Origin: a virus | Virus record (IMG/VR): IMGVR_UViG_3300032214_001462 | Location: 16,663-80,662 of that record | Length of the DNA stretch: 64,000 nucleotides | Reading direction: 5' to 3' (one strand) | Shown: positions 12,247-62,300 of the stretch, piece after piece | Layout of the letters: every line of letters starts with the position of its first letter | How positions within the stretch are numbered: position 1 is the first letter of the stretch | Translations under genes and position numbers: made by a program | The notes under the pieces: generated by a model | Told to the model about the DNA's origin: nothing | What the model saw: only the letters and a program-made list of their open reading frames with translations | The model's database searches: none

Positions 12247-13302
12247 ATGGCTAAAGACAATAAGAAAAATAATCAAGCAGTTAATCCTTTGATTGCCTAC
12301 GCTCAGCAAATGGCTGGCGGCGGTGGCAATAAAGGAGGCGGTGGCGGTGGCGGCAATAAAGGCGGTGGCGGTGGCAATAAGAATAATGGTGGCGGTGGCA
12401 ATAAGAATAATGGTGGCGGTGGCGGTAACAAAGGAGGCGGTGGCGGCAATAAAGGCGGTGGCGGTGGCGGCAATAAAGGAGGTGGAGGAGGCAATAAAAA
12501 CAACGAACAGACAAAAGCAGAGTCACGAGAAAGAATCAAACAGAAAGCTGCAGCTGGTATCTCTTTAGCTCAGATTAAACAAAGTAAAGCAGGACAAAAC
12601 GTTAATCCTGGCAAAGTAAAGGAGCTTTTTAATGCGTTCACTACCATCGAAGGTGGTGGCGGTGGCGGTGGCGGTGGCGGTGGAGGAGGAAACAGAGGCG
12701 GCGGTGGCGGAAACAGAGGTGGTGGCGGCGGTCGCAATAATGGCGGTGGCGGCGGCGGTGGTGGCGGTGGTGGTACCCCTGTTGACACCTCAGGTGGTGG
12801 CGGCGCAACAGGTGGCGGTGGAGCTGCAGGAACTGATTTTGCGACCATCTTTGAAAACTTAAGTACAGCTCAAGAAAACCTTGCTAATATTCAAGGTGGC
12901 TTTAGTGTTCAAGCCGCACAGATTGGCGCTGATGCTACCGTTGCATCTGCTGGTTTAAGAGCTGATGCTGATAAAGAAGTAGCTAAAGCGTACGCTGATG
13001 CTCAGAAGTTTTCCGCTGACCGTGGCCTGGAAGGCACCAAATATGTTGCCGACCGTGAGTCTGAGTGGCGCCAAGCAGTCGCTAACATTGAAGTAAAAGG
13101 TCGCCTGGATCTCCAACCAATCATTAATGCGGGTATCCAACGAGTGGCCGAGATTGAAGGCGCTACTCAGCGTGATGTCGCTGATATCACTGGTAAATTC
13201 AACCTGGCATCTACAAAGGCTCGTACTGATGCGGATGAAAGAATCAGCAAGGTACAGCTTGCCGGTAACTTATATGGCCTGATTAATTCCGTATTTGGAT
13301 AA
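12247..13302 (+). CDS. Poly-glycine protein with C-terminal coiled coil
   Basis: A 351-residue protein. Residues about 24-86 are units of four to six Gly joined by NK or NKNN. Residues 137-180 hold a second tract of up to 13 consecutive Gly with NR linkers. The remaining C-terminal half (about 205-351) is a long Ala/Asp-rich helical region likely to form a coiled coil. The DNA is a run of GGTGGC-type repeats. A flexible glycine linker between assembly domains of a virion protein is plausible; no family recognised. Confidence 0.6.
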   Translation: MAKDNKKNNQAVNPLIAYAQQMAGGGGNKGGGGGGGNKGGGGGNKNNGGGGNKNNGGGGGNKGGGGGNKGGGGGGNKGGGGGNKNNEQTKAESRERIKQKAAAGISLAQIKQSKAGQNVNPGKVKELFNAFTTIEGGGGGGGGGGGGGNRGGGGGNRGGGGGRNNGGGGGGGGGGGTPVDTSGGGGATGGGGAAGTDFATIFENLSTAQENLANIQGGFSVQAAQIGADATVASAGLRADADKEVAKAYADAQKFSADRGLEGTKYVADRESEWRQAVANIEVKGRLDLQPIINAGIQRVAEIEGATQRDVADITGKFNLASTKARTDADERISKVQLAGNLYGLINSVFG

Positions 13303-13339
13303 TATTGTTTAAAATATAAGGAGACGGATTGATCTAACT

Positions 13340-13519
13340 ATGACTAGTAGCGTACCCACTGGCCAAAGCGGTGCTGATGACTTTTTTGACATCGATAAGT
13401 TTCAGCAGCTTCTCGATCGATTAGAAGGCTCTAAAGGCCGTCAGCGTCGTCAAGAAGGCCTTGAGGGCCGGCGTAATATCTTTACGCAGGGTCTCGCCAG
13501 CATGATGAGCAACTTCTGA
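13340..13519 (+). CDS. Small duplicated protein, copy 1
   Basis: A 59-residue protein starting MTSSVPTGQSGADDFFDIDK, followed by a basic helix (LEGSKGRQRRQEGLEGRR) and ending SMMSNF. Copy 2 (13540) is nearly identical and the N-terminus of copy 3 (13744) is related. A TAAAAT hexamer lies at 13310-13315. No family recognised. Tandem copies just before the terminase genes suggest a small virion or packaging accessory. Confidence 0.6.
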   Translation: MTSSVPTGQSGADDFFDIDKFQQLLDRLEGSKGRQRRQEGLEGRRNIFTQGLASMMSNF

Positions 13520-13539
13520 TCTTTTAAAAGGTTTTAACA

Positions 13540-13719
13540 ATGACTAGTAGCGTACCCGCCGGACAAAGCGGCGCAGATGACTTTTTTGATATCAACAAGT
13601 TCCAGCAGCTTCTTGATCGTCTCGAGGGATCAAAAGGTCGTCAGCGTCGTCAAGAAGGTCTTGAGAGCCGCCGTGACATTTTTGCTCAAGGCCTTTCAAG
13701 CATGATGAGCAACTTCTGA
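13540..13719 (+). CDS. Small duplicated protein, copy 2
   Basis: A 59-residue protein differing from copy 1 at only a few positions, also ending SMMSNF. The DNA is clearly related over the whole length with mostly third-position changes, which indicates that both copies are under selection as proteins. It is separated from copy 1 by 20 bases. Confidence 0.6.
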   Translation: MTSSVPAGQSGADDFFDINKFQQLLDRLEGSKGRQRRQEGLESRRDIFAQGLSSMMSNF

Positions 13720-14492: not shown

Positions 14493-14846
14493 ATGGATTT
14501 AAATCAACAAGCTATTCCCGCAGGTGATGAGCGTCTCGCTGGTAGCTTGATGAATGTTGTTTTAACATTACAAAAAAACCGTCGACGTGGTATTGATAGT
14601 TCAACGCCAAGTCTTAAAGGATCGCCGCAAGAAGGCGCAGAAGTATTAGGCGCTGTGCGCGATCAAAAACAAAATGAACAAAAAGAAAATGCCACCGGAA
14701 CTCCTGGAGCACTTCCGCAAGAACGAGGCCAAGAGGGAGGACGGCAGCGAGATGTCGGACAAGGAGAAGAGGAAAGCGGCATTGGACAAAGCTCGCAAGT
14801 ACAAGGAGCAGACAAAATGAGGCAATATGGAAGAAAAATGATGTAG
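14493..14846 (+). CDS. Unknown protein overlapping a 48-codon gene
   Basis: A 117-residue frame. The first 60 residues look like an ordinary small protein (DERLAGSLMNVVLTLQKNRR). The rest is Gly/Gln/Glu-rich low complexity, as expected where a second frame (14674-14820) sets the codons. Either the protein is real throughout, or only its first half is informative. No family recognised. Confidence 0.45.
   Translation: MDLNQQAIPAGDERLAGSLMNVVLTLQKNRRRGIDSSTPSLKGSPQEGAEVLGAVRDQKQNEQKENATGTPGALPQERGQEGGRQRDVGQGEEESGIGQSSQVQGADKMRQYGRKMM
14674..14820 (+). CDS. 48-residue basic helical protein, overprinted
   Basis: A short frame beginning MNKKKMPPELLEHFRKNEAK and continuing with alternating Lys, Glu and Arg. 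The M-P-x-E-L-L-E-x-F-[KR]-K pattern is a small helical protein type I know from other phages near terminase genes. It lies wholly within 14493-14846 in another reading frame. The codon choice (CTC, CTG, TTC, AAG, GAG) favours this frame in the overlap. Confidence 0.5.
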   Translation: MNKKKMPPELLEHFRKNEAKREDGSEMSDKEKRKAALDKARKYKEQTK

Positions 14847-14876
14847 CATTCAGTAACTAATTAGATAGTTAATCAA

Positions 14877-16403
14877 GTGCCGTCTTATCAACACCTTGCT
14901 TACCGTCGTAACGCTAGGGCAGCGGCACAAAAACAACAGTTACGTCCCCCCAAGAATGCTGCGAGTATTCAGAAAGCTCGCGATGATTTTGGTTTCTTTT
15001 GTGAGTATGTAGCCGATAAGCCACCTGCTGAACACCATCAACATTGGCATCGCCATTTCATTACAGATCAAGATAGTACTTGCCTCATAAAAATTGCAGG
15101 TCCCAATGTTGACTTGCTTGCTCCACGGGGTTCTGCAAAATCTACAGTCCTTGGACTTTTAACTGCATGGGCAATTGGAGTTCATACACATGCCAGGATG
15201 CCACTGCAGATCCTGTATCTCTCCTATACCGTTGACATTGCTCGATCAAAGTCCGCAACAATTAAAAGGATCATTGAAAGCAAGCGCTATCAAGAAGTTT
15301 TCCCAAAAGTAAGGCTTTTGAAAAATGTCACCAGTAATGAGTACTGGTCCATTGATCACAAGTTTGCTGGTATTGATACTACAGGTGAAGAGCAGTTCAC
15401 CCTTTGCGCTGCTGGTCTAAAAGGATCTGTGACTTCGAAGCGTTCTCATCTTGTCATGATCGATGACGCCATTAAGTCTGCAGCTGATATTGCTAATCCT
15501 GATATCAGGAAGCAGATGCAAGAAAACTGGAATGCAGTGATTGCACCAACAATGTTTGAAGGGGCCAGGGCCATCTGCCTTGGTACGCGCTTTAGACATG
15601 ATGATATTCATGCAACAACTTTTAACGAGCAAAATAATTGGCAGCAGATCGTTCTTTCTGCAATCCTTAATGATCCAAAAACAGGAGATGAAAAATCATA
15701 CTGGCCCGAGATGTGGTCACTTGATTACCTAAAAGAAAAGAAGAGGCAAGCACCTATTGCTTTTTCTTTCCAATATATGAATCAAGTGATTAGGCAAAAT
15801 GAGCTGTCACTTGCACCTGAACTAATTGTTAAAGCTGAAATTGCAACTGAGTTTGACACGCTTGGAATAGGTGTTGACTTGTCTGCTGGCACCAAGGAGA
15901 AGAATGACTATACGGTGATGATTCTTGGCGGACGCATCGGAGATCAGATTCATATTATTGATTACCGACGTATACGCGTCATGGGAAATCTAGAAAAACT
16001 TGATCAATTAAAAGAACTTCTCAATGATTGGTCAATTCTTGGAAAGGATGAAAACGGTCTTTACTACCCAACACACTCAACGTGTGACATTTGGAGTGAA
16101 GCAGTCCAATACCAAGCATCTCTGGAAGCCGACTTTAAGAGAGTGTGTCTTAACGGAGAGGGACTCTGGAATTTGATCTGGCACCCTGTCAAAGGATTCC
16201 GTGCGGATAAGCTTGCACGTTTTCGTGGTTGCATGGGCTTATTTGAAGAAAGAAAAATTATTTTTAATCGTTATCGCAATTTCACAGCCATGTTTGAAGA
16301 GCTGACTAACTTTGGAGTCAGTAGTCATGATGACACGGTGGATGCTTTGGTTTGGTTAATTACAGGTCTAATGAGAAAAGGACAGCTTCACATTGATTAC
16401 TAA
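14877..16403 (+). CDS. terL: Terminase large subunit
   Basis: A 508-residue packaging motor. An N-terminal ATPase domain has a Walker A-like loop APRGSAKST (about residue 83) and a Walker B-like LVMIDDAI (about residue 196). A C-terminal RNase H-type nuclease domain begins with GVDLSAG (about residue 328) and ends with SHDDTVDALVW (about residue 482), carrying the acidic metal ligands. It cuts concatemeric DNA and pumps it into the prohead through the portal encoded at 17604. GTG start; no strong Shine-Dalgarno site is visible. Confidence 0.9.
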   Translation: MPSYQHLAYRRNARAAAQKQQLRPPKNAASIQKARDDFGFFCEYVADKPPAEHHQHWHRHFITDQDSTCLIKIAGPNVDLLAPRGSAKSTVLGLLTAWAIGVHTHARMPLQILYLSYTVDIARSKSATIKRIIESKRYQEVFPKVRLLKNVTSNEYWSIDHKFAGIDTTGEEQFTLCAAGLKGSVTSKRSHLVMIDDAIKSAADIANPDIRKQMQENWNAVIAPTMFEGARAICLGTRFRHDDIHATTFNEQNNWQQIVLSAILNDPKTGDEKSYWPEMWSLDYLKEKKRQAPIAFSFQYMNQVIRQNELSLAPELIVKAEIATEFDTLGIGVDLSAGTKEKNDYTVMILGGRIGDQIHIIDYRRIRVMGNLEKLDQLKELLNDWSILGKDENGLYYPTHSTCDIWSEAVQYQASLEADFKRVCLNGEGLWNLIWHPVKGFRADKLARFRGCMGLFEERKIIFNRYRNFTAMFEELTNFGVSSHDDTVDALVWLITGLMRKGQLHIDY

Positions 16404-49802: not shown

Positions 49803-51071
49803 TTATACGGAAACGGCGAGCACTTCCTTGCGGTGACTCTTTTTCTTTTTCTTAGGGCCAGGAGGCTTGACTGGCAGCTCATGGCTTACCTCCTTCATCA
49901 CGTCCTCAAAGATGCCGCCAAACTGAGACGCAACCGTGTCCCATGAGAACTGTTCATCCGTAACACGCTTGTAGCAGGCCTCACCAACCTCTTCGCGAAG
50001 CTTGGAATCCTGGTACAGATCGTTCAAGATTTCAGTGAGGTGATTTGCAGATGGGCATGGCATCTCGCGTGCGTAGTTAACGTCCACATCAACGTGGTCG
50101 CAGCGGATCAGTTCACCGCAGCCCTCAAAAATCTCTTTGCATGATGTGTGGTTAGGCACTACTTGCGGCACCTTGCAGGCTGCGTGCTCAAAGTTAACGA
50201 GTCCCCAGCCCTCACCTTTACAAGTGTTGACACCTACATCACAAGCGTTGTAGATCGTGTTAAGCATTTCCACATCTACATTCGGAGGACCTTCCGTTTG
50301 CGTGGTCATAATGATGCGGCCATTTGGATCTAGACCAACCTTGGACATCTCTCGGCCAAAGACACCCATCACATCCCAGCCTTGGTCCTTCATTCCCATG
50401 TGCAGGTAAAGACGTGCATCAGGCTTATCGACAGCAAACTGAGCAAATGCCTGGATCGTGATATCAATCCGCTTACGGAATTGATTGCGATTCCCGTTGA
50501 AGACAATGAATAGGTCTTCCGACAAACCAAGAGCACGGCGACACTCTGCCTTGTCCTTGGGATAGAACTGACCAGGTGTTACGCCATGGGGGATGACGGC
50601 GATTGGGTTGCGAATGCCGCCCCTTACAAATTCGTGCGCACCAAATTCTGTATAAGAAACGATTGCATCCCAGTCATTGGCGGTCTCTGCTAAGCAGCCA
50701 ATCCAGCCATAGGAATCCATTGGGGCGTAACCAATGAATTTAAACTTGCCCTGCTTGTGAAGGTCTTGGATCTGCTGGTACTGCGTATTAATGATCCACA
50801 TGTCATTAATCGTGAAGACAATATCCGGCTGTTCACGCTCAACGACCTCTCGAATGCGCTGCTCACCAAAGGGCGCCGTCTGGAATCGATTAGAGGAAGG
50901 ATAAATTTTGAAGTCATCTTGCTGCTTACATGGATCACCCCACCAGTTATGGCCAAGAACTACGATTTCAAAGTCATCTTTCAATCGGGCGAGCACATTT
51001 TCAGTGACACGTGCAAAGCCAGTCATGGCTACGATGTCACCACACCATAAAATCTTTGTCTTTTTAGTCAC
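49803..51071 (-). CDS. GT4-type glycosyltransferase
   Basis: A 422-residue GT-B fold enzyme. The N-terminal domain has ILWCGDIVAMTGFARVTENV and PHGVTPGQFYPKDK (about residue 163-176). The C-terminal domain has the nucleotide-sugar motif CKGEGWGLVNFEHA (about residue 283) with the usual E-x7-E spacing. It transfers a sugar from an activated donor; the acceptor is unknown (virion protein, DNA or host surface). The last 20 residues are basic. Confidence 0.85.
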   Translation of the reverse strand: MTKKTKILWCGDIVAMTGFARVTENVLARLKDDFEIVVLGHNWWGDPCKQQDDFKIYPSSNRFQTAPFGEQRIREVVEREQPDIVFTINDMWIINTQYQQIQDLHKQGKFKFIGYAPMDSYGWIGCLAETANDWDAIVSYTEFGAHEFVRGGIRNPIAVIPHGVTPGQFYPKDKAECRRALGLSEDLFIVFNGNRNQFRKRIDITIQAFAQFAVDKPDARLYLHMGMKDQGWDVMGVFGREMSKVGLDPNGRIIMTTQTEGPPNVDVEMLNTIYNACDVGVNTCKGEGWGLVNFEHAACKVPQVVPNHTSCKEIFEGCGELIRCDHVDVDVNYAREMPCPSANHLTEILNDLYQDSKLREEVGEACYKRVTDEQFSWDTVASQFGGIFEDVMKEVSHELPVKPPGPKKKKKSHRKEVLAVSV

Positions 51072-51096: not shown

Positions 51097-51456
51097 CTAT
51101 ACACAAACTTTAGGAGTGATTGAGCGTGTTATCTCTTTTTCTTCTACAGTAGTTGCCTTTAGTTTTTCACTTAAGAACCTAGCTGCCTTGTGGGTTTGTG
51201 TTGTATCGCCACACGTATAAAGATCAATTGCGCAATAACCCATCTCAGGCCAGCTATGAACAGATGCATGGGATTCAGCCAGAAGTGCAAGCAGGGTCAC
51301 GCCTTGCGGCTTGAACTTCTCACCAAAAATTCGCAGGATGGTCGCTTTTGCCATCACAAGAGAAGCTTCAAGTAATCGTTGAAGCTCCTCGTAATCATCA
51401 AGGATCTCTGGATCACAACCGTAGAGATCCAAAATGAGATGGCGGCCGTTGCTCAC
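51097..51456 (-). CDS. speD: S-adenosylmethionine decarboxylase proenzyme
   Basis: A 119-residue protein with the SpeD signature: LAESHASVHSWPEMGYCAID followed by LYTCGD. The Glu-Ser bond is the self-cleavage site that makes the pyruvoyl group; His and the later Cys are catalytic. It makes decarboxylated AdoMet for spermidine synthesis. The gene is known as a host-derived gene in cyanophages. It overlaps the end of the primase-helicase gene (ATGA). Confidence 0.88.
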   Translation of the reverse strand: MSNGRHLILDLYGCDPEILDDYEELQRLLEASLVMAKATILRIFGEKFKPQGVTLLALLAESHASVHSWPEMGYCAIDLYTCGDTTQTHKAARFLSEKLKATTVEEKEITRSITPKVCV

Positions 51457-55256: not shown

Positions 55257-55508
55257 TTATTCATCTAACCAAGGAGCTCTTAGCCGCATCTCACCACCCA
55301 GTTGTTGAGATTCACCAGTCTGGAGCTCAGGATCAATAGGCTTCTCGCTATAGAGGGGCCTATTTTTTTCCTCTAATTCACGTTCAGCTTCCCATTGGTT
55401 TTCCCATTCGATCATTGTGAGCCGAGCCTTAAGCCTGGCTTCAAACCAAATTTTTTTCAGCCACTGAGTGACGGCTTTAATCACGTCGTTAAATAAGATC
55501 TGGATCAT
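55257..55508 (-). CDS. Small charged protein
   Basis: An 83-residue protein, one long basic-acidic helix (QWLKKIWFEARLKARLTMIE; NQWEAERELEEKN) and a polar end. It overlaps the end of the nuclease gene by 20 bases and may be its partner. No family recognised. Confidence 0.45.
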   Translation of the reverse strand: MIQILFNDVIKAVTQWLKKIWFEARLKARLTMIEWENQWEAERELEEKNRPLYSEKPIDPELQTGESQQLGGEMRLRAPWLDE

Positions 55509-56343
55509 ACTGATTACAATTTTCTATTTGTGTATAATATTCTTCAACAATTTTGTACCAATCTTCCCGAAGAGAGTCCAAAAAGCGACGAGAGATTTTA
55601 AAGATTTGTGTACGTACAGGCGTTGACACAAGAATTGCCGCCTGTTGCACAGTCATACCAAGAGTCTGTTCAATTGCGATGTCATATGCAGCGAGTTGCT
55701 TGCAGGTCTTTTTAAATTTCATATGACCACCAAGCAGATCCCTCCATTCCTGGGACCCCTTCTCCAAATCTTTTGGCCACTTACGGCTATATGGTTTGAC
55801 GCTAGTTTTTAGGTCGGCAAGCGTGAGTTTGTTATTAGCAACAGCGATAATGTCAGGAGCACCAGCCCAAGCCCTGCCTTCGTTATCACAACCCCAGACA
55901 CGAGCGACGTCATCAGCACCAATAGTGAAATCAAACTTATCGAGTACAGGAGACTCTGCCCAGAGAATTTCAGAAAACTGATCAAGAATTGGCGGCATAC
56001 CAGCCCAGAAATCTGAATATTCATCTTTGATGTCTGGATTTTTATTCCCTTTAAGGTATTGTTCCATTCCATAGTGGATGGCTGTACCCCTCTCAGCTGC
56101 TTGTTCTTTGACGCCTGGGTTTGCTTTCGACCACATTTCAAGCTTCCGCTTGTTTGCTTCGGAAGCTGTTTCACTAATGATTGTAGTTACGGACGGCGCA
56201 GGTCCAGTGGGTAACGGAGTTGTATAGTGACGTTTTCCGTTAAGCGTAATTCTGGCTGCGGTCCGATTAATCGACCGCATCATCTCTGGTTGCTCTTCCT
56301 TGGCCTTAATCCAAGGATCTGATGTATTCAGTTTAGCAACCAT
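55489..56343 (-). CDS. PD-(D/E)XK nuclease (RecB/Cas4-like)
   Basis: A 284-residue protein with the RecB-type nuclease motifs in order: AERGTAIHYGMEQYL (motif I, about residue 83), WAESPV (about 128), GAPDIIAVANNKLTLADLKT (catalytic Asp and the D-x-K motif, about 159-178) and CKQLAAYDIAI (motif QxxxY, about 215). It is probably an exonuclease in recombination or host DNA breakdown. Confidence 0.85.
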   Translation of the reverse strand: MVAKLNTSDPWIKAKEEQPEMMRSINRTAARITLNGKRHYTTPLPTGPAPSVTTIISETASEANKRKLEMWSKANPGVKEQAAERGTAIHYGMEQYLKGNKNPDIKDEYSDFWAGMPPILDQFSEILWAESPVLDKFDFTIGADDVARVWGCDNEGRAWAGAPDIIAVANNKLTLADLKTSVKPYSRKWPKDLEKGSQEWRDLLGGHMKFKKTCKQLAAYDIAIEQTLGMTVQQAAILVSTPVRTQIFKISRRFLDSLREDWYKIVEEYYTQIENCNQYDPDLI

Positions 56344-56394: not shown

Positions 56395-56499
56395 ATGGAC
56401 GATTTTAACTACGCGATTGCTTCGATTCTTGGGGCTATGCTTGTAGTGATTGGCATGGATGCCTACCTGTTCTTCACAGAAGTAATGTCTCGGCAATGA
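56395..56499 (+). CDS. 34-residue single-pass membrane peptide
   Basis: A short frame encoding one hydrophobic helix (YAIASILGAMLVVIGMDAYL) with acidic N-terminal residues and a short basic end. The stop overlaps the ATG of the hli gene (ATGA). Size and layout are like small photosystem or cytochrome b6f subunits, but it does not match one that I know. It may be a partner of the Hli protein. Confidence 0.5.
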   Translation: MDDFNYAIASILGAMLVVIGMDAYLFFTEVMSRQ

Positions 56500-56738
56500 A
56501 CAAATTCCTACTTGGCATTCAAGGCTATGCCTCATGCCTGGGCTGGTTTCTGCCAGCCTTATGGAAATGGCTCCGGGAATCCGCACCAGATATCCAATTT
56601 TGGAAATGGCACACAAATTGGGGTGATCATTTTTGGTACGCCGAACGTGTCAACGGGCGTATTGCCATGCTGGCATTGACCTTTTTATTTATCTGGTGCT
56701 TAACACATGGCCTCAAACTTAACTCGTTTTTATTTTGA
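56496..56738 (+). CDS. hli: High-light-inducible protein
   Basis: An 80-residue protein with the chlorophyll-binding helix AERVNGRIAMLALTFLFIW: Glu50, Asn53, Arg55 and Met58 give the ExxNGRxAM motif of Hli/CAB proteins. The 30 preceding residues (ALWKWLRESAPDIQFWKWHT) are longer than in the usual host Hli. Hli proteins bind chlorophyll and carotenoid and protect photosystem II during light stress; phages carry them to keep photosynthesis going. Confidence 0.85.
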   Translation: MNKFLLGIQGYASCLGWFLPALWKWLRESAPDIQFWKWHTNWGDHFWYAERVNGRIAMLALTFLFIWCLTHGLKLNSFLF

Positions 56739-56877: not shown

Positions 56878-57540
56878 GTGAAAGTTCCGGCCAAAGATAT
56901 TGTTTTGTATGCTGTTTGCCTAGAGAATTCAGACGTTCGTTTTAAAACCTCAGCAAGGGTCGTGCCTTTTTATGGTGACCAAGGAGAACATGCAGACGTT
57001 AATCCTTACTGGGGCGAGCTCAGCTGCATGTATTCCCTGTGGAATGAGTGCACAGACCCGTTTTTTGGTATTGTTAATTATCGACGAAATTGGGAAGAAC
57101 GATTCTTAAACGAAGCAGAGGATGATACTTTATATATTCCACGCCCAGTAACTTTCCCTTTTTCTGTTCAAAAGCAATTCTCTCAAGGCCATGGCCAAGG
57201 CCTAGATGAAACAGTTGAGCTTTCCCTGGATCTAGCACGCAAAAAACGTATTCCTTTAACAGAGGAGATGCTTTTGCAGATGTGGAATCAACCGAAGTTT
57301 TTTGAAACGTTACAGGTGATGGGACCAAATGAAGCAATGCATACTTACTTTGATCTTGTCTTTGACATCCTGCTCCCAATTTGGGAGGAAGGCAAAGATT
57401 ATTTCATGAGCCGTACTGGTTACAATAGGCGTGGTCCTGCTTTTCTGATGGAACGACTGCTTACTGCAGTATTCTTGAACAAAGAACATTTCTTTGGTAA
57501 ACAAAAGATTAAAGAAATTCCTTTTGTTATTTATCGTTAA
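56878..57540 (+). CDS. DUF4422 glycosyltransferase-like protein
   Basis: A 220-residue protein with GTG start. GDQGEHADVNPYWGELSCMY followed by FFGIVNYRRNW matches DUF4422 (G-D-x-G-D-N-I...N-x-x-[YF]-x-E-L-[ST] and [VI]-x-x-x-[HN]-Y-R-R). The family occurs in sugar-polymer clusters and is thought to be glycosyltransferases. It opens a four-gene sugar cluster. Confidence 0.75.
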   Translation: MKVPAKDIVLYAVCLENSDVRFKTSARVVPFYGDQGEHADVNPYWGELSCMYSLWNECTDPFFGIVNYRRNWEERFLNEAEDDTLYIPRPVTFPFSVQKQFSQGHGQGLDETVELSLDLARKKRIPLTEEMLLQMWNQPKFFETLQVMGPNEAMHTYFDLVFDILLPIWEEGKDYFMSRTGYNRRGPAFLMERLLTAVFLNKEHFFGKQKIKEIPFVIYR

Positions 57541-57542
57541 TC

Positions 57543-58259
57543 ATGCAAGTTACACAAATTTTTCTTACGGATAACAACTCCGAGATTGGTCCTTTTCTGC
57601 AGGAGGCAACGACTAGTGTTAGGCGTGCTTTTCCCCAACTCAAACATCGTATTTATCGCAACCAAGAAGTAGAAGAATTCTTGGAAGAACATTACGACCA
57701 GGGTGTTGTTAATGCTTATCACAAAGCAAAGCCTTATTCCTACAAGTGCGACTTAGCTCGTTATTGTATTACCAATATTGTTGGCGGTTGGTACTTTGAC
57801 GTAACAGTGCGCTGTCTTCTTGGTATTGAGCTACCAAAAGATTGCACCTTGCTTGCATTTAGGGATATCAACCGTTATACGCGTGTCTCATGGGCATGTG
57901 ATGGAGCAGTCTTTTATAGTCCTGCGAACAATCCTATTCTTGATGAAGCGATCTCTCAGATTGTCAGCAACATTGAAAATGAATATTACGGCATGACACC
58001 TTTGTGCCCCACTGGCCCAACTGTATGGGGTAAAGCAATTGCCTTGGAAAACCACCTTATTGATGACAAGGTGATCTTTGGTGATGCTATTGAACTGACG
58101 CCCGACCACATGAATAAAAATAAGGCGCTTGTACTACCTGATGGCACGATCTTTGCCTTAAAGAAACCAGCCATGGGCGGAGACCTAAGTGCACTTGGCG
58201 CTACAGGCGTGAACAACTACAATGAACTCTGGTACAAAAAAGACTTGTATGTCAAATGA
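57543..58259 (+). CDS. Glycosyltransferase (GT32/Gly_transf_sug-like)
   Basis: A 238-residue protein. YSYKCDLARYCITNIVGGWY followed by FDVTV matches the [DR]-x-x-R-Y-x-x-[LI]-x-x-x-G-G-x-Y-x-D motif. The usual D-x-D is D-V-T here, so the second Asp is missing; metal binding may be altered. Second gene of the sugar cluster. Confidence 0.7.
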   Translation: MQVTQIFLTDNNSEIGPFLQEATTSVRRAFPQLKHRIYRNQEVEEFLEEHYDQGVVNAYHKAKPYSYKCDLARYCITNIVGGWYFDVTVRCLLGIELPKDCTLLAFRDINRYTRVSWACDGAVFYSPANNPILDEAISQIVSNIENEYYGMTPLCPTGPTVWGKAIALENHLIDDKVIFGDAIELTPDHMNKNKALVLPDGTIFALKKPAMGGDLSALGATGVNNYNELWYKKDLYVK

Positions 58260-59106
58260 TGCAAAGCTTACCCTCTACGGAGGCACTGGCATCATTGGGA
58301 CTTACTACAGAGGGATGTACCCGTCTCAATACGTAGAGCGTGAACACTGTTGTCCGCTTACAGAAGATGTTTTGTACCTAATTAGTACAACGGATAACAC
58401 TAATATTTACACCAGCCCTCAGCTAGACATTCACACAAATTTATCTGTGCTTGCTAATCGGTTAGATCACTGCCGAGACTTTGGCATCAACACATTTAAC
58501 TTTGTTAGCAGCTGGTTTGTTTATGGGCCCGGGCATGTCAAGCCTAGTGAGCGTTCGATTTGCAATCCAAATGGTTTTTATTCGGTGACCAAGTATGCAG
58601 CTGAGAAGCTAGTCATGGAGTATTGCAAAGCTCATAAAATGAACTGGCGCATATTCCGCTTAGGTAATGTTTATGGCGGACCTGATAAAGGCACAGAAAA
58701 GCGCAATGCTCTTCACCACCTTATTGAATTATTACGTAAAGATGATGACATCAAGATTTACGAAAATCTATCCAGGGATTACATCCATATTTTGGATGCA
58801 TGCCGAGCCATGAATTTTCTTTGTAACAATGGACACATCAACCAAATCTATAACATTGGCACCGGCATTGAAACAAGGCTTTTTGATTGCATCGCAGATG
58901 CAAAAAATATGTTGAAATCACGCAGTAAAATTGAGCGCATCGTACCAAAAGAAGACTATAATCAAGCAATTAGATTCAGTCTTGATTGCACCAAGTTATA
59001 TGAGCTTGGATTCCAGTCAACGCTGACATTACAAGAAGGTTTAGAAGACTTATGTCGCGATCAAAAGTTTTGTACTCCGGTCCGTACTTTGACGGTCGCG
59101 AAATAG
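58249..59106 (+). CDS. NAD-dependent epimerase/dehydratase (extended SDR)
   Basis: A 285-residue protein. The N-terminal Rossmann motif is LTLYGGTGIIGTYY (GxxGxxG, residues 11-17). The catalytic YSVTKYAAEK (Tyr-x-x-x-Lys, about residue 110) and NVYGG follow. It changes or oxidises a nucleotide sugar. It overlaps the previous gene by 11 bases and the next by 55 bases. Confidence 0.82.
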   Translation: MSNDAKLTLYGGTGIIGTYYRGMYPSQYVEREHCCPLTEDVLYLISTTDNTNIYTSPQLDIHTNLSVLANRLDHCRDFGINTFNFVSSWFVYGPGHVKPSERSICNPNGFYSVTKYAAEKLVMEYCKAHKMNWRIFRLGNVYGGPDKGTEKRNALHHLIELLRKDDDIKIYENLSRDYIHILDACRAMNFLCNNGHINQIYNIGTGIETRLFDCIADAKNMLKSRSKIERIVPKEDYNQAIRFSLDCTKLYELGFQSTLTLQEGLEDLCRDQKFCTPVRTLTVAK

Positions 59107-60308
59107 AAGCAGCGATTGCGACACTAAAAGAAGGAGCCTGGTACCCAGCCGGTAAAGAAGTCGATAAATTTGAAAGGGCGTTTTCCAAACAGTTTGGATT
59201 TACTTCATCACTTATGGTGAATAGCGGTAGCTCCGCTAATTTGGTGATGCTTGCCGCCTTAAAGAAATACTTTGAGTGGCCGGATGGCGCTGAGGTAATT
59301 GTTAGTGTGGTCGGCTTTCCCACTACCATCAATCCAATTATCCAGAATGGTTTAACACCTAAGTTCGTAGATATCACCTGGGAAGATTTAAACTGGGATC
59401 TGGATCAGGTAGAAAATGCAATCACGGACAAAACAGTTGCAGTTTTTAGTAGCCCTGTTTTGGGTAATAGTTACGACCTGGATCGTTTACTCGATATCTG
59501 TGAACGGCGTTCACTGAAATACATTGCAGATAACTGTGATTCTCTTGGCTCAAAATGGAATGATGATTACTTAACCAAGCATGCTGTTGCAGCATCTTGT
59601 TCTTTTTACCCAGCGCACCATATCACCACCCTTGAAGGTGGCATGGTTTCATCCAATCTTCCTGGGCTAACGACACTTGCCCGTCAATTTGCTTGGTGGG
59701 GGCGTGATTGCTATTGCGTTGGCGAATGCAACATGCTGGCCAATGGTAGTTGCGGCAAGCGTTTTGATACGTGGTTGCCAGATTATGACGTTGTCGTTGA
59801 TCATAAATATGTCTTTAGCCAGATTGGCTACAACCTCAAACCTTTGGATCTACAGGGTGCAGTCGGCTTGGTACAGCTAGAAAAGTTTAATGAAGTACAC
59901 ACTATTCGTCGTTTAAATTACCAGACAATTGTTAATTATTTCCAGGACTATCCTGATGAGCTAAAGATTATAGGTGAGAAACCACAAGCAGAAACCTCTT
60001 GGTTTGGCGTACCTATTGTGTGTGACAATCCCAAAGTCAAACAAGGTTTACAACAGCATCTTGAAAGCAATGGCGTACAGACTCGAAATTATTTTGCTGG
60101 TAATTTGCTGCTCCATCCTGCATATCGGCACCTGGGCAGTGCTAAAGATTTCCCCAATGCGTACGAAGTCCTTAAACGTGTCTTCTTCCTTGGCACCTCC
60201 CCTTCCCTTAACTACGATCAGATCCATTATGTAGGGGAAACCATCCATTCATTTATGGTAAATACACCTATTTCATGTGATGGTTATAGCTGCAGATTTA
60301 AATTATAG
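59052..60308 (+). CDS. RfbH-type dehydrase: PMP- and [2Fe-2S]-dependent
   Basis: A 418-residue DegT/DnrJ/EryC1-fold protein. At the position of the usual catalytic Lys it has His (SFYPAHHITTLEGG, about residues 187-200), as in RfbH/AscC (CDP-4-keto-6-deoxyglucose-3-dehydrase) and ColD. Four Cys in RDCYCVGECNMLANGSCGKR (about residues 217-236) match the [2Fe-2S] ligands of RfbH. It removes the C3 hydroxyl of a 4-keto sugar, the key step to 3,6-dideoxyhexoses. The reductase partner is not seen in the window. Confidence 0.85.
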   Translation: MSRSKVLYSGPYFDGREIEAAIATLKEGAWYPAGKEVDKFERAFSKQFGFTSSLMVNSGSSANLVMLAALKKYFEWPDGAEVIVSVVGFPTTINPIIQNGLTPKFVDITWEDLNWDLDQVENAITDKTVAVFSSPVLGNSYDLDRLLDICERRSLKYIADNCDSLGSKWNDDYLTKHAVAASCSFYPAHHITTLEGGMVSSNLPGLTTLARQFAWWGRDCYCVGECNMLANGSCGKRFDTWLPDYDVVVDHKYVFSQIGYNLKPLDLQGAVGLVQLEKFNEVHTIRRLNYQTIVNYFQDYPDELKIIGEKPQAETSWFGVPIVCDNPKVKQGLQQHLESNGVQTRNYFAGNLLLHPAYRHLGSAKDFPNAYEVLKRVFFLGTSPSLNYDQIHYVGETIHSFMVNTPISCDGYSCRFKL

Positions 60309-60377
60309 TTATTAAATGCAGAATGATTACAGATGTTATTGATTGGCCCTATACTGAGAAGACCAAAGGAATCAGAG

Positions 60378-60590
60378 ATGTCGCTTTCTAACCAAGTAAA
60401 GGATTCTATTCAACAAGCAGGTGATTGCTTGCGTGATGCCCTCGCCTTTGCGGCACGTACCGAGCACCCTGTTACCATAACAACGATTTCTGATATCTTA
60501 TGCCGCCTGGAATCCTTGGAGCAGGTCGATGATTTGATGCAGCACTTTGCAAAGCGAGATGAGGAAAAAAAGAATCCCTACCGAAACTGA
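60378..60590 (+). CDS. Small conserved-looking protein
   Basis: A 70-residue helical protein starting MSLSNQVKDSIQQAGDCLRD, with HPVTITTISDILCRLESLEQ in the middle. TATACT lies 22 bases upstream (60350-60355). Similar small proteins occur in cyanophages, function unknown. Confidence 0.5.
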   Translation: MSLSNQVKDSIQQAGDCLRDALAFAARTEHPVTITTISDILCRLESLEQVDDLMQHFAKRDEEKKNPYRN

Positions 60591-61541: not shown

Positions 61542-62219
61542 GTGACGACTCTTGTTGCCAACGTGCCACCGGTTAAAGTTTGGGTTCGCAGAGAGTACCT
61601 TCGTGATCTAAGGGATGGCTATGGTGAATATACACTGGGCTATTGGGTAACTTGTAAATCGTTAACAGGCAGAGCATTACAGTTTGAAACTTACCTAACT
61701 GAATATGGTGCGCTTTACGACAAGCTTCCTATTAGCGCTTTCCTTGCCTGGGACTCAGATTACCCAGATAAACCGCAAGCACCAACACCAGACCTGGAGC
61801 TAACCGACCTGCAATTCTGGAATGGATTTGATACTGGCCTTACGGTTGTAGAAAAGAACTTGATCTATAACATGGAATTCCAGGTGATGACACGTAGTGC
61901 TGGTGTAATGAAGGGCACATATTTATTTACGGTTGACAATTATCATCCTCATAGGAACGAACCTGATTTTTATTTTGCGGAATTTCCTGATGAGCACAAA
62001 TCCCATAACATTGTGGCTTTGGACAACGGTCAAATTGGCGCTTATCCCAACAATCGTTGTCGGATGGTTGACCCATCACTAAGCAATCACAACCTCAAGA
62101 CTCCAGACTTTAAGGTATCCACGAGGTACTTTGACTCCGAGAAAGCGCTAAAGTGGGGCCGCCTAGGTGAATGCGACGATTATTTCTGGAAGACACCAAA
62201 CGAAAAAGATGTAGAATAA
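61542..62219 (+). CDS. Conserved cyanophage-type protein, unknown function
   Basis: A 225-residue protein. VKVWVRREYLRDLRDGYGEY followed by GYWVTCKSLTGRALQFETYL and YGALYDKLPISAF is a pattern I know from a widespread, uncharacterised cyanophage protein. It has several Tyr and Trp residues and an NNRCRMVDPSL segment. The GTG start directly follows a terminator hairpin; the nearest ribosome site is before the hairpin, so initiation may be regulated. Confidence 0.65.
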   Translation: MTTLVANVPPVKVWVRREYLRDLRDGYGEYTLGYWVTCKSLTGRALQFETYLTEYGALYDKLPISAFLAWDSDYPDKPQAPTPDLELTDLQFWNGFDTGLTVVEKNLIYNMEFQVMTRSAGVMKGTYLFTVDNYHPHRNEPDFYFAEFPDEHKSHNIVALDNGQIGAYPNNRCRMVDPSLSNHNLKTPDFKVSTRYFDSEKALKWGRLGECDDYFWKTPNEKDVE

Positions 62220-62228
62220 CTTTTCTAC

Positions 62229-62300
62229 CGGGAATTAGCGCAGCGGTAGCGCGTCTGCTTTGGGAGCAGAAAGTCGCAGGTTCGATCCCTGCATTCCCGA
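62229..62300 (+). tRNA. tRNA-Pro (anticodon TGG)
   Basis: The cloverleaf is complete: acceptor stem CGGGAAT/ATTCCCG, D arm GCGCAGCGGTAGCGC, anticodon stem TCTGC/GCAGA with loop TTTGGGA (TGG at 62261-62263), and T arm GCAGG-TTCGATC-CCTGC. CCA is not encoded. It may help decode CCA and CCG codons or serve as an integration site. Confidence 0.95.

Follow-up and report, generated by a model that had tools for sequence, protein, structure and literature searches.

The closest characterised relatives of the phage enzyme described here, the E1/RfbH proteins (DdhC and AscC) of Yersinia and Salmonella, act on CDP sugars as CDP-4-keto-6-deoxyglucose 3-dehydrases, and the chemistry of this dehydrase family is established for both E1 and SpnQ of Saccharopolyspora spinosa. 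SpnQ is a 3-dehydrase with the catalytic His and a [2Fe-2S] cluster that acts on a dTDP sugar without a dedicated reductase, being reduced by ferredoxin or flavodoxin systems and not by E3 (PMC8987622); it differs from the phage enzyme in its 2,6-dideoxy substrate and its role in spinosyn synthesis, and the two are likened here by function, not by sequence. The same net C3 deoxygenation takes place in the GDP-colitose pathway through Gmd and ColD, the latter lacking Fe-S cysteines. Sugar genes have long been known in cyanophages, and earlier work did not settle whether they have a function or are stuffer DNA (PMC3037559). T4-like cyanophages (P-SSM2, S-SSM7, S-SCSM1, S-H68 and RB11-B) resemble the phage studied here in carrying nucleotide-sugar and glycosyltransferase genes, and S-H68 and RB11-B encode a 63% identical dehydrase together with RmlB (dTDP-glucose 4,6-dehydratase), RmlC and a short-chain dehydrogenase/reductase (SDR); however, their clusters comprise ~20 genes in 200-kb myoviruses, as opposed to a swappable cassette of 3-5 genes in an 80-kb phage.

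The window analysed here is a stretch of 64,000 nucleotides from a virus record of 80,662 bp, in which it covers positions 16663-80662. The first and last 123 bases of the record are identical, forming a 123-bp terminal repeat, which suggests a complete genome. Its TerL shares 82.7% identity with that of Synechococcus phage S-EIV1, the major capsid gene (MCP) shows 86% and most genes are collinear, and these hallmark genes and synteny identify the phage as an S-EIV1-like freshwater cyanophage. Several further features were recorded in the window. The gene at 61542-62219 encodes a protein 86% identical to S-EIV1 AHV82133, which is annotated as PurM; the differing genome position and the absence of any Pfam match make the PurM name doubtful. 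An S-adenosylmethionine decarboxylase (SpeD)-like gene, also present in S-EIV1, adjoins the primase gene at 51097-51456, and the sole tRNA gene found within the window is a tRNA-Pro (TGG) at 62229-62300.

The four genes of interest span positions 56878-60308, where all four ORFs of the sugar cluster named in the preliminary description were recovered. They are co-directional, with a 2-bp gap between the first two and overlaps thereafter, and were consequently read as one operon encoding, in order, a protein with a DUF4422 domain, one resembling GT32 enzymes, a short SDR and a member of the DegT family. S-EIV1 has none of them; it retains both flanks and carries a single methyltransferase-like gene in this slot instead of a four-gene cassette. 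The features of the region are as follows.

49803..51071, minus strand: GT4 glycosyltransferase, a lineage core gene outside the cassette, 65% identical to the S-EIV1 glycosyl transferase group I
55489..56343, minus strand: conserved left flank gene g3, 65% identity to S-EIV1 12724-13572
56496..56738, plus strand: Hli-like small protein forming the slot's conserved left border, with the motif WYAERVNGRIAML common to S-EIV1 and relatives
56878..57540, plus strand: DUF4422 protein, predicted glycosyltransferase (220 aa, GTG start; PF14393 30.9 bits, cut-off 25)
57543..58259, plus strand: GT32-like predicted glycosyltransferase (238 aa; PF04488, Gly_transf_sug, 22.3 bits, cut-off 23)
58249..59106, plus strand: short extended SDR, probably a 4-ketoreductase or an epimerase (the listed ORF begins at 58222)
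59052..60308, plus strand: predicted [2Fe-2S] nucleotide-sugar 3-dehydrase of an RfbH/E1 sister subfamily (418 aa; His189, C162/C220/C222/C234)
60333..60590, plus strand: conserved right flank gene g5, 53% identity to S-EIV1 14786-15004

The presence of two glycosyltransferases and an SDR beside an RfbH-type enzyme was thus borne out, with both glycosyltransferase assignments weak by HMM (DUF4422 above and Gly_transf_sug just below its cut-off). Among relatives, the DUF4422 protein occurs fused to a GT2 domain (in contig L090, described below), and one homologue of the GT32-like protein (L029) clears the PF04488 cut-off at 24.9 bits; the GT32-like protein keeps the GGWYFD motif, and the second Asp of the DXD is not conserved. 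The GT4 gene at 49803, which had been counted with the sugar set, is instead a core gene shared with S-EIV1 and was ruled out of the pathway. The Hli-like protein had no Pfam, NCBIfam or PHROG match, a promoter and terminator scan returned matches no commoner than expected by chance, and codon usage and GC content were uninformative as signs of foreign origin.

The enzyme at 59052 belongs to the DegT/DnrJ/EryC1 family (PF01041, 235 bits), and its best solved relative by sequence is the E1 dehydrase (3bcx/3bb8, E 8e-69), with which it shares 33% identity in a structural alignment. Its predicted fold (pLDDT 87) likewise retrieves E1 as the best match in the PDB, with a TM score of 0.84 to 3bcx. 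The two hallmarks of RfbH that had been noted, a His replacing the catalytic Lys and a four-Cys site, both hold up in alignment. The catalytic His corresponds to His189, the first His of an HH pair at the position of the E1 H220K mutation, and all 109 aligned rows have His here; the four ligand cysteines of E1 align with C162, C220, C222 and C234 and are kept in 107 of the 109, the exceptions being ColD and a ColD-like enzyme of phage ACG-2014f. The enzyme is thereby predicted to combine a DegT fold with a catalytic His and four Fe-S ligands, and the presence of the cysteines sets it apart from ColD, which has the His without them. An additional cysteine, C226, is not conserved.

Despite this resemblance, the phage enzyme differs from E1/RfbH in several respects. 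Its cysteine spacing is C-X57-C-X1-C-X11-C, with a final gap of X7 in E1, and in-frame stops upstream of 59052 leave no room for the N-terminal extension of ~30 residues seen in E1. It scores 357.6 bits against the RfbH equivalog NF011936 (NCBIfam), under the curated cut-off of 423. In a maximum-likelihood tree, it falls inside an all-viral clade of 43 rows (support 100/100), within a subfamily clade of cyanobacteria, other bacteria and phages that stands apart from the Yersinia and Salmonella enzymes, E1 and Salmonella RfbH lying on a separate long branch. The separate clade and the score below the cut-off suggest that the enzyme represents a divergent, long-loop sister subfamily that would work like RfbH, rather than RfbH itself. 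The all-viral clade, together with the presence of the subfamily in 4 of 300 genomes of the host family, also led us to reject a recent transfer of the cluster from the host.

Three peculiarities surfaced among the aligned homologues. In Woesearchaeota KatS3mg002 (L106 5979-8732), the RfbH-type gene carries what looks like an intein: ~486 aa inserted in frame right behind the catalytic HH and ending in FHN before a Ser. The contig JAURGV010000174.1 (L090), binned as Rhodothermales, carries S-EIV1-like phage genes and the cassette (RfbH 80%), and is probably mis-binned phage DNA. Lastly, a gene of phage ACG-2014f annotated as 'aminotransferase' (L111 5890-7083), of a type carried by many ACG-2014f cyanophages, encodes the 3-dehydrase His without the Fe-S cysteines, and its product is probably a ColD-like dehydrase.

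The SDR likely starts at 58249 (residue 10 of the ORF as listed); the residues ahead of it are modelled with pLDDT <50. It contains the GxxGxxG motif and a conserved S96/Y120/K124 triad, and the fold predicted for it (pLDDT 89) resembles those of UDP-glucose 4-epimerases and of RMD, a 4-ketoreductase. Assignment as a 4,6-dehydratase was rejected, since the protein reads SSWFVYG, with no DE motif, while having the S/Y/K triad. A relative of this SDR lies immediately upstream of the dehydrase in 73 of 106 viral and cellular loci, including Prochlorococcus, where the pair adjoins housekeeping genes. Its natural role would be to reduce or epimerise the 4-keto product; the epimerase named in the preliminary description is one of the activities that it could have.

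The preliminary description had also reported that the needed RfbI/AscD-type reductase is not in the window. The absence extends to the complete genome, in which searches for two domain families (Fer2 and FAD_binding_6) and a scan for Cys motifs revealed no overlooked reductase, so that the dedicated E3 (RfbI/AscD) typical of the E1/RfbH class is missing from this phage; that the phage needs to encode one, however, does not follow given the SpnQ precedent. The ferredoxins found near the dehydrase, of only ~97 aa, occur in 4 of 85 viral relatives. Ferredoxin and ferredoxin-NADP reductase (FNR) are abundant in cyanobacteria, and together with the SpnQ precedent this makes electron supply by the host the simplest assumption for the dehydrase. 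A SpnQ-like reduction independent of E3 would be consistent with the absence of E3 from the phage genome.

To address which nucleotide carries the sugar, we relied on relatives, because RmlB and RmlC are both missing from the window phage. Among the closest relatives listed, 85 viral loci contain the dehydrase or a close homologue; RmlB is present in 21 of them and RmlC in 17, both of which are found in other sugar clusters too, whereas RfbG (CDP-glucose 4,6-dehydratase) and RfbF (glucose-1-phosphate cytidylyltransferase) are present in none, which argues against the CDP-glucose route envisaged previously. In close S-EIV1-like relatives, the operon is lengthened to SDR-RfbH-RmlC-RmlB, with RmlB at 415 bits (cut-off 365) and RmlC at 199 bits (cut-off 156). 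The Prochlorococcus family was taken as the presumed host family in a sample of 300 partly incomplete genomes. RmlB scored above its cut-off in 202 of these and the dehydrase subfamily was present in only 4, suggesting that the phage supplies a step that most hosts lack. A CDP-linked version of the same chemistry, in which the host would provide CDP-4-keto-6-deoxyglucose for a product of the CDP-paratose, abequose or ascarylose type, gains some credit from the CDP substrates of E1/RfbH and from RfbG in 91 of the 300 genomes, making a host CDP supply possible. The four dehydrase-bearing genomes include one with RfbG (G080) and four with RmlB, a weak count given their partial incompleteness; the complete genome HT-58-2, in contrast, encodes the dehydrase with no RfbG over the cut-off and an RmlB-like gene ~11 kb upstream. 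With the dehydrase subfamily also separate from E1, we consider a CDP-linked pathway unlikely. The recurrence of RmlB and RmlC and the lack of RfbG and RfbF at the viral loci make a dTDP-4-keto-6-deoxy sugar, usually made by the host, the more likely substrate.

A search of IMG/VR with the left flank gene g3 identified at least 158 relatives, and the slot was read in the 80 closest. The Fe-S dehydrase occupies 14 of these slots, always with the SDR and in six cases with RmlB and RmlC. Another 28 encode a ColD-like dehydrase of 25-27% identity, in which a residue check found the His present and the Fe-S cysteines absent, accompanied in 28/28 by an oppositely oriented Gmd gene (468 bits, cut-off 415, in L188, the only one tested whole) and by a CAP59-type glycosyltransferase. 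A single methyltransferase-like gene with a weak Methyltransf_24 match, as in S-EIV1, fills 25 slots, and the remaining 13 are truncated or of other types. One of these (L194 3035-6440) combines a CAP59-type glycosyltransferase, a HAD phosphatase-nucleotidyltransferase fusion and a 164-aa protein, suggestive of another NDP-sugar route. No slot combines two cassette types, which are mutually exclusive (0/80), and cassette type switches at least 10 times on the tree of the flank gene. RmlB accompanies the Fe-S dehydrase (6/14 vs 0/28 ColD slots; Fisher p 6e-4) and Gmd the ColD-like enzyme (28/28 vs 0/14; Fisher p 2e-11), both tests ignoring relatedness. The cassette genes are under strong purifying selection, with dN/dS values of 0.02-0.05 for the dehydrase (four pairs, some with saturated dS) and 0.05-0.12 for the SDR. 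The alternation in one slot of two non-orthologous C3-dehydrases, each with a matching 4,6-dehydratase, suggests that the trait they share is likely a 3,6-dideoxy product, and this, together with at least 10 swaps and purifying selection, points to selection for making 3,6-dideoxyhexoses. No published work on S-EIV1 sugar cassettes was found in the open-access literature searched.

Building on what the analysis establishes directly (the genes and their active-site residues, the phylogeny, purifying selection, the slot and its alternative cassettes), we propose that the four genes are an accessory cassette for a 3,6-dideoxyhexose, seated in a slot of S-EIV1-like cyanophages whose position is fixed and whose content is exchanged. 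Host rhamnose enzymes RmlA/RmlB, and possibly RmlC, would supply dTDP-4-keto-6-deoxyhexose, from which the phage PMP/[2Fe-2S] dehydrase would remove the C3 hydroxyl with His189 as the base, host ferredoxin or FNR replacing a dedicated E3. The overlapping SDR would then turn the 4-keto product into a dTDP-3,6-dideoxyhexose by reduction, epimerisation or both. In the least certain step, the two glycosyltransferases would move this sugar to a glycan, most likely a host outer-surface polysaccharide, and thereby mask receptors against competing phages during a long infection. On balance we lean slightly towards this stepwise account as a whole, in which the synthesis and transfer of a dideoxysugar, as first suggested, are supported by the RfbH-type [2Fe-2S] 3-dehydrase with its SDR and glycosyltransferases. 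The latent period of S-EIV1 exceeds 7 days (PMC8790148), which makes the marking of infected cells against other phages attractive, and superinfection exclusion through host surface decoration is a plausible outcome that we favour over decoration of the virion. The latter, in which the sugar on tail or capsid would change adsorption or protect the particle, is the main rival; a phage-encoded and variable cassette is what a surface-exposed trait would show, but the glycosyltransferases look like polysaccharide enzymes and the slot has no link to a structural gene, and we judge it rather improbable. Phages that glycosylate their DNA are known, and the sugar might be placed on hypermodified bases as a defence against restriction; the surroundings of the slot, however, showed no recognisable gene for a hydroxymethylase or for base modification, and the glycosyltransferases of relatives are of the polysaccharide types GT2, GT11, GT25 and CAP59, leaving this reading very improbable. 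Finally, that the slot holds non-functional stuffer DNA, an idea raised in the past for LPS genes of cyanophages (PMC3037559), accords with its dispensable content (other or single-gene content in relatives) and is nonetheless the least probable reading of all, being in the main refuted by purifying selection on the dehydrase and SDR genes, by active sites intact in all relatives and by cassettes that are coherent and do not mix.

Carried further, the proposal suggests a serotype-like switching locus, in which a dTDP-linked, ferredoxin-driven [2Fe-2S] dehydrase with its SDR, or Gmd with ColD, would converge on a 3,6-dideoxy sugar that is absent from the host and marks infected cells against competitors, an extension that we hold tentatively and as somewhat more likely wrong than right. 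That a short swappable slot holds two non-orthologous C3-dehydrases with their matching 4,6-dehydratases, under strong purifying selection, speaks for selection on a particular class of product and opens this proposition to testing. The [2Fe-2S] dehydrase would represent a new, uncharacterised sister family of RfbH. The proposal further predicts that the RfbH family has a branch that depends on dTDP sugars and not on E3, and that a widespread lineage of freshwater phages carries a surface marker.
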